55,457 bases of DNA. It comes from a bacterium. GTDB taxonomy: Bacteria; Patescibacteriota; Gracilibacteria; JAUYGZ01. Below the pieces are notes generated by a model. The model was given only the letters and a program-made list of their open reading frames with translations. It made no database searches and was not told the origin of the DNA. The stretch is from positions 1 through 55,457 of the forward strand of contig JAUYGZ010000020.1 in the NCBI GenBank assembly GCA_030690415.1, written 5' to 3'. Made by a program: the position numbers and the translations under genes. The stretch's first letter is position 1, and the number at the start of each line of letters is the position of its first letter. This document shows positions 27,293-55,457 of the stretch, one piece after another.

Positions 27293-27328
27293 GGCTTGAC
27301 CTCCGCTATCCTGAAACCATCACCTCTC

Positions 27329-27366
27329 CTTATCGTCCTTATCGTCCTTATCGTCCTTATTATCCT
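27329..27366. repeat. CTTATCGTC tandem repeat (9-bp unit) in the purL leader
   Basis: Three full copies and partial copies of CTTATCGTC ending 5 nt before the purL ATG. Similar words occur before the ferredoxin start (31740-31762) and around the 43.2-kb gap. The leader has no Shine-Dalgarno site. Confidence 0.8.
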
Positions 27367-27371
27367 TCCCC

Positions 27372-30300
27372 ATGATCCTCAAGCTTTCCGAACCCTTCCT
27401 CGACCAGCCGGCGCTGAAAAAGCGTTTCACACGGGAATTTGAAGGCCTCAAAAATGTCTTCACTCGTCGCGTCGCGCGAGTCCAGACCAGTCGTGAGCTG
27501 AGTCAGGAAGAGCAGGATGCGCTGCATGTCTTATTGCTAAACGGAACAGGTGATGGGAACACTCCGGAACATGCCAAACAGATTGAAATCGCCTACCAGC
27601 CGGCGGTGATGGATCCGGAACATACCGCCATTGAGAAGATGCTGACAAGTGTTGACTTCGGTGATCAGATCGAGGCGGTGAAGTTATCTACTATATATGC
27701 TTTTGAAGGACTGACGGAGGAGGAGTTGGAGACTTTGGTGAACAAATACCTCTTCAACCCCCTACTCCACGTCATCATCATACCTGAATCTAAACCCAAG
27801 CTGACCATTCAGGCTGAGGCTGAAAAAATGCAGATCGTAACGGGATTTCGTGAGCTGAACCTGAGAGAGCTAAAGGAACTGAGTGAGGCAAGGAGTCTTT
27901 ATATGGAAGACGGTTTTTTGGAGGAAGTTCAGCGCAAGTTTCGGGATGATCTGCAGCGGGACCCAACGGATGCAGAGCTGGAGTACCTGGCCCAAAGAAC
28001 CTCGGATCACTGCTTTCACACCACCTGGAAGTCGCTGGGGCTGTTTAAGAAATTGAAAGCGGAGGTGGAAAAGGTCTTGCCGAAGAGACCCGACATCGTT
28101 TCGGTTTTTGTGGATAATTCAGGGGTGATGGAGGCCGACGGGAAACCAGAAAACGAGGAAACGAGGAAACGAGGAAACGAGGAAACCAGAAACCAGAAAC
28201 CAGAAACCACCACCTACCTCATCAAAGGCGAAACCCATAACGCCCCCACCGCCATCGCTCCGGTTGGAGGGGTGGAAACGATGCATGGGGGATGCTTGCG
28301 CGACATTATTGGGACCGGGCAGGGAGGAGTGCCGAGCATGGCAACGCAGGTCTTCATCGTTGGCTCGCAGAGCAAGGAGGAGATGAGCGAGCACTATCAG
28401 GTCGACTCCTTTCTCGATCCGCTCGTTATTTTGAGGGGTATGATCCAGGGTGTGCAGAATTACGGGAACCCCATGGGTGTGCCGAATTTTGGAGGGCGGG
28501 TGTTTTTGCATCCGAAGTTTTTTGGGAAACCCCTGGCCCTGGGGATTTGTCTGGGAGTGGGCGAACGGGAGTATTCAACCATTGGCAAACCTCAGTCCGG
28601 AGACATTGCCCTTCTTGTTGGAAACCCTACCGGTCGGGATGGGATCCATGGCGCGACGATGAGTTCCGCGGCGAATACCGAACAGTCCTCGAAAAAAGAA
28701 GGCGCGTCAGTCCAGATCGGTGATCCGTACACCGAACGGCTCATCATGGAGGCGACCCCTGAGCTCAGGCCTCTGCTTCGAGCTTATGGTGATCTGGGAG
28801 CGGGTGGGATCGCGTCCTGTTTTGGCGAGATGGCTGAAGGCGTGGGGATTGAAATCGATTTGACCAAGATCCCGACCAAGTACGAAGGGCTGGCCCCTTG
28901 GGAAAAACTGGAGTCGGAATCCCAGGAACGCATGGGCATGGCCGTCGCTCCTGAGAATCTGGAGAAGGTTCAGGCAATTTTAGTTCATCATGAAATCCCC
29001 TCTCATGTCCTGGGGACATTTACCGATACGAAACGATTCGTCGTGAAACACGGAACAGAAACCATCGTGGATCTGGATTACGAATGGCTAGAATCCTTTC
29101 CGGTGGCGCAAAAAACGGTGGAACAATATATTGTGCAGTCGGCAGATATTCATCTGCCGACCGTAGAGACGCCGCGCCGCGGCGTCTCTACGGGAGACGC
29201 GCTATTGCGCATCCTGCGGACCCCTGAATTGGCCGACCAATCGATGTTCCTGAGGCGCTGGGACAGCACCGTGCAGGGAAAATCGCTGAGGGAATCGCTG
29301 GCGCCATTTACGAACATGCCCTTCGATCAGGGCATCACAGTGCCAAACCCTGACGACGGCCGAACACAGGTCCTGTCGCTCACGGTCAACCCTTGGTGGT
29401 CCGCCAACCCATACGCCATGACGCAAGCCTGCGTGGCGGGGACGGTTTCCAAGCAGATTGCTGCCGGAGTAAAGCGGAAGAAAATAGCCCTCTGCGATAA
29501 TTTTTACACTCCCAAGTCCCGACCGGAGATTGATTCTCACCTCACGGAAATGGTCCGGGCCATGACGGATATGATGGTAGATCTGGGAACGCCTATTATT
29601 TCCGGAAAAGATTCTTCCAGCGGGACCACGAAGATGATTCGGAAGGCTCATCAGGAATCGGAAGTGAGTGACGGCTTTCATCACGCCGATGAACAGAAAG
29701 AGCATGTTGAAAATTTTGAAATCTCCCCCACAATTTGTATGTCCGCTGTAGGTTCCGGTGACGATGCGATGAAGGTGCCGCCAAAGGCTCTTCAAAAAGT
29801 GGGAAACGAACTGTACTTTCTCTCTGTCGGCATTTCGAATGACGCGAGTGGGTCGGTGCTACTCCCCGATTACGAACGTGCGAACGCCTTCAATTGGTCT
29901 ATCAATATTCAGGAGTACATTCGAACAATCGATCGCCTGGCTGAGTTGATCGATGAAGGCAAGATTATCAGTATCTCAGTCGTCGATGACGGAGGTATTT
30001 TTCACCGGATTTTTGAAATGATGTTGGGGTCGGGATTGGGGGCTGAGCTGAACATCGGTGGGGTGAACATCGGCGAGGATATCGATCCTCGCCTACGGGG
30101 GTTTATCGGCGCGGAAGATATAGATCCCAACCCTACCGTAGCTGAGGATCGATATCCTCAGCTAGCGATATTAGAATTCCTCACCAACGCCCTTCCCGGC
30201 TCCTTCATCGTCGAGGTGGAATCTGCTGATGTTCTTGCTGAACTGGACGCAGTGCGCTTGGGGTCAGTAACGGAACGAGCAGAACTGGTGATTGGCGATG

Positions 30301-31118
30301 AAATCATAACGCTTCACGAAATGCGCTCCACCTGGGAACGAGTCTGGTACGATCAGCTGAACATGCCTTTCGAACCCCAGCGCGTTGAACCACCGACGAG
30401 CATTCTTCCCTTTACGCCAACTGAACTGACCAAGAAGAAAGTGAACATCGTCTACTCCCCCGGGATCAACTGTCACCAGGAAATGGTTCGAACCTGGACG
30501 AAGCTGGGCTGTGATGCGAACCTGATTTCCGTTACCGACTCGAATGCGAAGTTCGCCGATGCGGATATCGTCGTCTTCCCCGGTGGCTTCGCTGATGGCG
30601 ACTACCTGGGCTCAGCAAAGGTCTGGCACCGTATCATGGAAACGCAGTTCAAAGATCAGATGGACTATTTGCGAACGGGAAAGATTCCCGTGCTGGGGAT
30701 TTGTAATGGATTCCAACTCATGACCCGATCCGGATTTTTTGGAAAGAATCTGAGGCTGACTTTCAACGACTCCGCGACCTTTGAACAGCGATGGGTGAGG
30801 GTGAAGTTTACTCTAGAGTCTGCAAACTCCATCTGGACGAAGGGATTGGAAGGAAAAGAAATCGTTGTTCCCGTCGCCCACGGCGAAGGCAAGTTCGTCA
30901 TGGACGGCGAAATGACCGGGGCAACCATTTCCCTGGTCTACGATCCACCCGGATATCCGAACAATCCCAATGGTTCGGATCGGAACATTGCCGGCGTCTT
31001 CGCCGGTGACCGAGGCCAGTTCTGGGGAGGCATGCCCCATCCCGAACGAGCCATTGAAGAGTGGCATTACAGCCAGCATGGGATGTTATTCTTTGAGAAT
31101 GTGCTGAGGAATCTCTAA
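27372..31118 (+). CDS. purL: Phosphoribosylformylglycinamidine synthase, PurS-PurL-PurQ fusion
   Basis: 1,248 residues. Converts FGAR, ATP and glutamine to FGAM in purine synthesis. Order: PurS-like N-terminus (about 1-150), a linker with SDHCFH, two AIRS-type halves (with GETHNAP near 285 and GKDSSSGT near 740), and a class I glutaminase domain from about 1020 with C1111 in GICNGFQ and H1223/E1225 in PHPE. Near residues 256-280 a low-complexity insert is encoded by GAGGAAAC/CAGAAAC tandem repeats. Around residue 600 a GTAGAGACG palindrome is read in frame. Around residues 900-930 two inverted palindromes are also read in frame. All preserve the frame, so the protein seems intact. Divergent from the cluster operon. 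Confidence 0.96.
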   Translation: MILKLSEPFLDQPALKKRFTREFEGLKNVFTRRVARVQTSRELSQEEQDALHVLLLNGTGDGNTPEHAKQIEIAYQPAVMDPEHTAIEKMLTSVDFGDQIEAVKLSTIYAFEGLTEEELETLVNKYLFNPLLHVIIIPESKPKLTIQAEAEKMQIVTGFRELNLRELKELSEARSLYMEDGFLEEVQRKFRDDLQRDPTDAELEYLAQRTSDHCFHTTWKSLGLFKKLKAEVEKVLPKRPDIVSVFVDNSGVMEADGKPENEETRKRGNEETRNQKPETTTYLIKGETHNAPTAIAPVGGVETMHGGCLRDIIGTGQGGVPSMATQVFIVGSQSKEEMSEHYQVDSFLDPLVILRGMIQGVQNYGNPMGVPNFGGRVFLHPKFFGKPLALGICLGVGEREYSTIGKPQSGDIALLVGNPTGRDGIHGATMSSAANTEQSSKKEGASVQIGDPYTERLIMEATPELRPLLRAYGDLGAGGIASCFGEMAEGVGIEIDLTKIPTKYEGLAPWEKLESESQERMGMAVAPENLEKVQAILVHHEIPSHVLGTFTDTKRFVVKHGTETIVDLDYEWLESFPVAQKTVEQYIVQSADIHLPTVETPRRGVSTGDALLRILRTPELADQSMFLRRWDSTVQGKSLRESLAPFTNMPFDQGITVPNPDDGRTQVLSLTVNPWWSANPYAMTQACVAGTVSKQIAAGVKRKKIALCDNFYTPKSRPEIDSHLTEMVRAMTDMMVDLGTPIISGKDSSSGTTKMIRKAHQESEVSDGFHHADEQKEHVENFEISPTICMSAVGSGDDAMKVPPKALQKVGNELYFLSVGISNDASGSVLLPDYERANAFNWSINIQEYIRTIDRLAELIDEGKIISISVVDDGGIFHRIFEMMLGSGLGAELNIGGVNIGEDIDPRLRGFIGAEDIDPNPTVAEDRYPQLAILEFLTNALPGSFIVEVESADVLAELDAVRLGSVTERAELVIGDEIITLHEMRSTWERVWYDQLNMPFEPQRVEPPTSILPFTPTELTKKKVNIVYSPGINCHQEMVRTWTKLGCDANLISVTDSNAKFADADIVVFPGGFADGDYLGSAKVWHRIMETQFKDQMDYLRTGKIPVLGICNGFQLMTRSGFFGKNLRLTFNDSATFEQRWVRVKFTLESANSIWTKGLEGKEIVVPVAHGEGKFVMDGEMTGATISLVYDPPGYPNNPNGSDRNIAGVFAGDRGQFWGGMPHPERAIEEWHYSQHGMLFFENVLRNL
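28155..28208. repeat. In-frame tandem repeats within purL
   Basis: Four units of GAGGAAAC (8 bp) followed by three or four units of CAGAAAC (7 bp), inside the coding sequence, producing an E-T-R-K/N-Q-K-P-E-T rich loop. Confidence 0.85.
29161..29193. repeat. Palindromic repeat within purL (16-bp arms)
   Basis: CCGTAGAGACGCCGCG (29161-29176) and its exact reverse complement (29178-29193) around a single C. The core GTAGAGACG/CGTCTCTAC is shared with 21531-21650 and 32075-32126. Confidence 0.85.
30072..30164. repeat. Pair of inverted palindromes within purL
   Basis: GGCGAGGAT-ATCG-ATCCTCGCC (30072-30093) and TAGCTGAGGAT-CGAT-ATCCTCAGCTA (30139-30164). The second is a reverse-complement copy of the first, including the flanking CCGTAG, with paired changes in both arms that keep the stem intact. 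Confidence 0.8.
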
Positions 31119-32074: not shown

Positions 32075-32126
32075 AGAGGTAACATTGTAGAGACGCATTG
32101 CAATGCGTCTCTACAATGTTACCTCT
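32075..32126. terminator. Perfect 52-bp palindrome between convergent genes
   Basis: Left arm 32075-32100 and right arm 32101-32126 are exact reverse complements (AGAGGTAACATTG, TAGAGACGCATTG and mirror). It lies between the ferredoxin stop and the polX stop, so it could act as a bidirectional terminator, although the T-run is short. It is also a member of the GTAGAGACG repeat family. Confidence 0.7.
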
Positions 32127-55395: not shown

Positions 55396-55457
55396 TAGGT
55401 GGTAGGTGGTAGGTGGTAGGTGGTAGGTGGTAGGTGGTAGGTGGTGGGTGGTGGGTG
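55396..55457. repeat. TAGGTGG tandem repeat (7-bp unit) upstream of guaB
   Basis: Seven perfect TAGGTGG units followed by TGGGTGG variants to the window end; the array continues outside. In the mRNA sense it is a G-free CCACCTA tract ending about 11 nt before the guaB ATG. Confidence 0.9.

Follow-up and report, generated by a model that had tools for sequence, protein, structure and literature searches.

In-frame repeats of three dispersed families within purL of an uncultured Gracilibacteria-like bacterium

The contig JAUYGZ010000020.1 (assembly GCA_030690415.1), whose full stretch of 55,457 nucleotides is called here the window, belongs to the 1.45-Mb draft genome of an uncultured Gracilibacteria-like bacterium. 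Its forward-strand open reading frame (ORF) at 27372-31118 is purL, which encodes a large-type phosphoribosylformylglycinamidine synthase of 1248 aa, and repeats of three families are read through within it with no stop or frameshift. We consider it quite probable that an intact purL was entered by three dispersed repeat families, whose copies were retained because each kept the reading frame and fell where the length of PurL can vary.

The purL gene and its extra segments

The encoded protein has the Pfam domains FGAR-AT linker, AIRS, AIRS_C, and GATase_5, is matched by Salmonella PurL chains at E ~1e-50, retains the GETHN, GICNGFQ, and MPHPERA motifs, and is 69 and 71% identical to relatives. 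The division of the draft into 30 contigs and the tendency of repeats to mislead assemblers would speak for an assembly error, or the gene might be a decaying pseudogene; both are hardly credible, since 1248 codons run uninterrupted, the motifs and the identity to relatives are preserved, and the genome is 98.79% complete.

The initial annotation described three repeats translated within a gene of the essential type, and all of them were found in frame in the intact purL. Perfect palindromes (stem of at least 9, loop of at most 8) number four in this gene, against a mean of 0.12 and a maximum of 2 in 200 codon-shuffled versions of it, and 0 or 1 in each of nine other long ORFs of the window. 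The initial inventory was correct for its three repeats and overlooked one more palindrome (29138-29161, forward strand; 10-bp stem, 4-nt loop), which abuts that of site 2.

Relative to its counterparts in G001 and G002, the two nearest genomes, the protein is longer by 21, 6, and 32/33 aa at the three repeat sites, numbered along the gene. A wider length count covered 27 relatives, obtained from 29 loci by excluding L040 (TGA recoding) and L044 (ORF shorter than 650 aa). Site 1 holds 47 residues here, as against 26 in 13 of the 27 relatives, 20-23 in 12 of a shorter type, and 46 and 75 in the other two, while site 3 holds 72 residues, as against 36-50 in 26 relatives and 84 in one. The segments at these two sites are thus longer than in most PurLs, as expected for inserts, rather than aligned to conserved parts of all PurLs. 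At site 2 our protein has 54 residues, which is not unusual among the 27 relatives (47-60). Other copies of the families lie largely or partly between genes, and the proposal that intergenic repeats had become protein segments holds for the three inserts. These segments probably form surface loops of PurL; an AlphaFold2 model of residues 150-1020 (3 sequences) reached a pLDDT of 29.6, too low for structural mapping.

Insert 1 is a tandem array at 28141-28209 of the forward strand (TRF period 8, nine copies), the 69 nt of which keep the frame; its presence had been noted correctly, with limits (28155-28208) that were too narrow. It is composed of six 8-mers of the GGAAACGA type followed by three 7-mers (GAAACCA), is translated around KPENEETRKRGNEETRNQKPE, and would derive from a dispersed GGAAACGA tandem repeat, which is open in all three reading frames. 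The doubled 8-mer gave 20 hits in this genome and 0 for the reversed-pattern control. The hits fall at nine places, four of them in genes (purL, trmD, guaA, and an RmlD-like gene) and five intergenic or upstream of a likely start; the array was looked for in G001-G003 and found in none, and no mobiliser was identified for it. The arrays of trmD and the RmlD-like gene sit, relative to solved structures, on extra stretches of ~9 and ~28 residues, respectively, and the guaA array region is variable among solved structures, the sole comparison for this gene, so its insert status there is not proven. The GGAAACGA arrays often occur as inverted pairs able to form long hairpins, some of them just before start codons (L185, L187, L198/L199, and L202).

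Insert 3, the stretch ~30060-30165, accounts for the 32/33 aa gained at its site and contains two palindromes of the GAGGAT type on the forward strand, at 30069-30096 (peptide GEDIDPRL) and 30138-30165 (peptide VAEDRYPQL). The members of the palindrome pair described initially (30072-30164) were located at 30072-30093 and 30139-30164. The genome has 10 such palindromes, with 0 in the reversed-pattern control; the units have GTAG..CTAC ends and occur in pairs. They occupy eight places, three between genes and five in ORFs, namely purL, argS, valS, a 985-codon secreted-type ORF without a Pfam match, and a lamin-tail/nuclease ORF. Four of the five genes use the matching frame (VAED..PRL). At its GAGGAT copy, ValS is ~15-21 residues longer than in G001-G003. 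These palindromes probably represent a second REP-like (repetitive extragenic palindrome) family, which would have been moved by a separate REP-associated tyrosine transposase (RAYT) of its own; one RAYT of G047 (L166) contains a palindrome similar to the GAGGAT type.

Some further features accompany these inserts. A fourth insert, about RKAHQESEVSDGFHHADEQKEH (29640-29705, forward strand), adds 16/17 aa relative to G001 and G002 and has no recognised repeat, and a 15-bp tandem duplication (30044-30073, forward strand) lies immediately upstream of insert 3. In G054, which belongs to another lineage, an unrelated palindrome occupies the same place of ValS, and a repeat of the CCCCCCTT..AAGGGGGG type has given our argS (L103 837-2639) another insert, NKAPLVRGGANESEQGVF, in addition to its GAGGAT copy. 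Directly upstream of the purL start, an array of the 9-mer TCCTTATCG is located (27327-27360, forward strand), and the window ends in a TAGGTGG array of 8.9 copies (55396-55457).

The site 2 palindrome and its candidate mobiliser

Insert 2 (29161-29193, forward strand) is a palindrome with a 16-bp stem and a 1-nt loop, the GTAGAGACG..CGTCTCTAC element of which, at 29163-29191, is translated as VETPRRGVST. The GTAGAGACG..CGTCTCTAC pattern has 15 matches in the genome, representing 13 distinct palindromes since two matches are nested, and 0 in the reversed-pattern control. These palindromes of 28-29 bp have GTAG..CTAC ends, in agreement with the GT[AG]G/C[TC]AC ends of TnpA_REP subclass 2.4, and their inner arms, though varied, are fully paired in 12 of the 13 copies. 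Only purL and a transposase are recognised genes that contain one; no recognised gene was seen around the other eleven, one of which precedes a lipoprotein-like start and one of which lies at 32075-32126 of the window (26-bp stem including flanks). Judged by sequence, the purL copy is a double-foot REP of subclass 2.4, the published features of which it matches, and hence it belongs to a known kind of element. The unique DNA flanking some copies (window 32075-32126; L001 and L003) is mirrored over 8, 10, and 12 bp on both sides, as if hairpin-copied.

The transposase mentioned above is encoded by a gene of 277 codons at C23:65661-66491 (L009 ORF 1069-1899) and matches the NCBIfam model REP_Tyr_transpos (NF047646, a general RAYT model not specific to subclass 2.4) at E 3.6e-13. 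Its translation carries PNHFH, FSWQ, and YIRNNP, in accordance with the subclass 2.4 motifs NH[IFV]H, WQ, and YIxNNP given in PMC6006769. The gene is flanked by GTAGAGACG palindromes 123 bp upstream and 15 bp downstream, and a third one (C23:66093) is in frame inside it, in the linker between the HUH and Tyr motifs. This linker copy is translated as VETPRRGVST, identical in all ten residues to the purL segment, and the two copies have 27 of 29 bases in common. The two positions that differ are base-paired to one another, and neither alters the encoded residue in either gene. From these sequence features, the C23 RAYT is the likely mobiliser of the GTAGAGACG REP. A search with Pfam Y1_Tnp alone had been empty and suggested that this genome had no RAYT, a conclusion overturned by the NCBIfam match, the motifs, and the flanking REPs.

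By analogy with TnpA_REP of E. coli, the RAYT would mobilise copies of the REP after nicking them, as single-stranded DNA, at GTAG. For each palindrome type (GTAGAGACG and GAGGAT), one reading frame is interrupted by TAG, and the remaining two are open. Since a REP copy is translated inside the transposase, GTA-GAG-ACG is a frame in which the GTAGAGACG REP can be read; it is used by purL and by all five palindrome-bearing RAYTs aligned, and the RAYT L237, with the GTAGAGACA variant, uses another frame. The frame and the ten residues common to purL and the RAYT linker would make such insertions mild.

RAYT homologs with an internal GTAGAGACG palindrome at the same place occur in G026, G014, G047, and G013 (where the frame is broken after the palindrome); the G026, G014, and G013 loci were found via the palindrome and represent a biased set, while the G047 locus was not. 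A survey of Y1_Tnp domains (67 rows in 60 genomes; 60 of the rows were fetched, one of them without an ORF) yielded 59 ORFs (L165-L184, L205-L244). A perfect palindrome with a stem of at least 9 is present inside 26 of them, with 2.9 expected from codon shuffles. In 21 ORFs it falls, by reading of the sequences, in the linker that runs from the HUH region to the WQ/LW motif; the other five are before the likely start (L171, L172, and L213), C-terminal (L229), or in a fragment (L210). The palindromes vary among RAYTs, and in several of these (L178, L217, L229, and L237) they correspond to those in the flanks. Y1_Tnp was present in 11 of 16 genomes with the GTAGAGACG palindrome vs. 12 of 44 without it (Fisher p = 0.006, 60 genomes), a test based on the Pfam result only, which ignores relatedness and scores our genome, G014, and G026 as lacking a RAYT despite the homologs seen there.

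In relatives, Y1_Tnp domains with their own in-frame palindromes also occur inside four aminoacyl-tRNA synthetase ORFs. Three are tRNA-synt_1 ORFs called IleRS-like from reading of the sequence (L169 of G009:C40, L173 of G039:C64, and L175 of G030:C3), with HUH and YI.NP-type motifs visible, and the fourth is a LeuRS-type ORF with the LeuRS editing domain (L170 of G009:C6). The RAYTs inserted in the IleRS-like ORFs of G009 and G039 have a palindrome that includes the TAGGTGG 7-mer of the window end.

Contrary observations and alternative explanations

Several observations weigh against the entry of mobile repeats into purL as proposed above. The thirteen GTAGAGACG palindromes are a low number for a live REP family, and the C23 RAYT reaches neither the cut-off of NF047646 (49.6 of 80 bits, in two split stretches) nor that of Pfam (20 of 23 bits), which may mean that the gene has decayed. 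The GTAGAGACG palindrome, the only one looked for, was found in 1 of the 20 first-fetched Y1_Tnp neighbourhoods. In the parts of the genome that were read, no RAYT cognate to the GAGGAT family was found, and valS reads the GAGGAT palindrome in a frame of its own. Finally, site 2 of purL holds ~56 nt of palindromic DNA for a net gain of only six residues, so that its initial description as an insert is half right, and ArgS is only 1-2 residues longer at its GAGGAT copy, less than the palindromic DNA would give. The small net gains at these two sites indicate that they are not simple insertions.

These two cases would agree with template switching, a rival account in which a polymerase copies one hairpin arm onto the other and, with no transposase, turns tolerant stretches into perfect palindromes where they stand, the array of insert 1 being produced by slippage. 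The fully paired inner arms of the GTAGAGACG copies and the mirrored unique flanks of some of them agree with this mechanism, as does the palindrome 29138-29161, which has no second copy in ~550 kb of loci of this genome (overlapping) plus the window. Nevertheless, identical GTAGAGACG and GAGGAT cores at distant sites, along with a cognate RAYT, require copying between sites, and the gain at insert 3 approximates the element length; we therefore regard an origin by switching as unlikely, while it may still polish the copies after their insertion.

In the reading that we prefer, the segments are most likely neutral, i.e., tolerated by the host with no function. They might instead have been put to use as mRNA hairpins slowing translation at domain borders or as partner-binding loops, given that the stems are perfect, that all three families meet in one gene (0.00013 by a rough estimate made post hoc), and that long site 1 stretches occur in two of the 27 other PurLs. 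Such use is very improbable, since the segments are missing from G001 and G002, and no conserved feature links these unrelated repeats in unrelated genes. A broader suggestion, which we put forward only tentatively, is that REPs stay translatable via a master copy serving as the linker of their own transposase and are hence fit for in-frame entry into essential genes, the IleRS- and LeuRS-type genes possibly being a “safe harbour” for RAYT domains (G009, G030, and G039).

Repeats in other genes and known systems

The view that few bacterial housekeeping genes tolerate such repeats, expressed in the initial annotation, is contradicted by the same families being in frame in argS, valS, guaA, trmD, and the RmlD-like gene of this very genome. 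In a blind 300-kb sample, tandem arrays of the 7-nt type are in frame in dnaG (L162 10921-12675) and epmA (L154 1866-2981), and also in an unnamed ORF (L159 3834-5096) and an SLH-domain ORF (L162 50-1402); the 9-mer TCCTTATCG found upstream of purL forms an in-frame array in a DHH-family ORF (L151 12140-14353). Intragenic REPs are, moreover, published for many bacteria (PMC3733652). The blind sample contained 10 perfect palindromes with a stem of at least 10, and neither palindrome family of purL was found there in a conserved gene. Eight of the 10 are between ORFs, so overall it is uncommon for a gene to contain a palindrome.

The repeats studied here are a clear example from nature of how selfish intergenic DNA has become protein sequence of core enzymes, and for one family the likely mobiliser is encoded in that genome as well. 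The peptide common to the transposase linker and purL offers a testable reason for the in-frame readability of such elements. For annotators and protein modellers, the case is a caution that parts of the core enzymes of these lineages may consist of repeat DNA.

Cyanobacteria possess heptameric short tandemly repeated repetitive sequences (STRRs) and small dispersed repeats, which form 7-mer tandem arrays and short palindromes located mainly between genes. The units considered here are different, and their arrays are translated in frame within several conserved genes. A literature search on palindromes or REPs in Gracilibacteria, Patescibacteria, and the Candidate Phyla Radiation (CPR) found nothing on this subject, and since most subscription papers are outside such a search, we do not claim absence from print. 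A text search for GTAGAGACG gave, among the matches listed, only papers seemingly unrelated by title, and for RAYTs in frame with tRNA synthetases only PMC3733652 was relevant, the others being seemingly unrelated.

The Rickettsia palindromic elements, as described in the review PMC10969869, are ~150 bp long and encode a conserved peptide in frame in unrelated genes. The repeats studied here are similarly in frame in several unrelated genes (purL, argS, valS, and two large secreted-type ORFs), but their units are only 28-33 bp. According to PMC3733652, GTAG REPs are known in frame in genes including those for tRNA synthetases and repair, and dimers encode 20 to 30 residues. Those REPs have one end at which GTAG is unpaired, while here this tag is paired with CTAC, so our elements are not classed as GTAG REPs in that sense; the consulted parts of that paper do not include CPR/Gracilibacteria, and here three repeat types meet in one gene.

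A close likeness is to the TnpA_REP subclass 2.4, for which in-frame self-insertion of the REP has already been published (PMC6006769). The common features are GTAG..CTAC at both ends, a REP-flanked gene, an in-frame REP between the HuH and Y motifs, and the same motifs. As far as the consulted part of PMC6006769 goes, the subclass is named for Cyanobacteria, Bacteroidetes, and various phyla, the group studied here not being among them, and unlike in its accounts, a REP copy is here also present in purL, in the same frame and with the same peptide. As far as our search extended, one enzyme of the essential type with three repeat families, and whole in-frame RAYT domains in IleRS- and LeuRS-type genes, are new.

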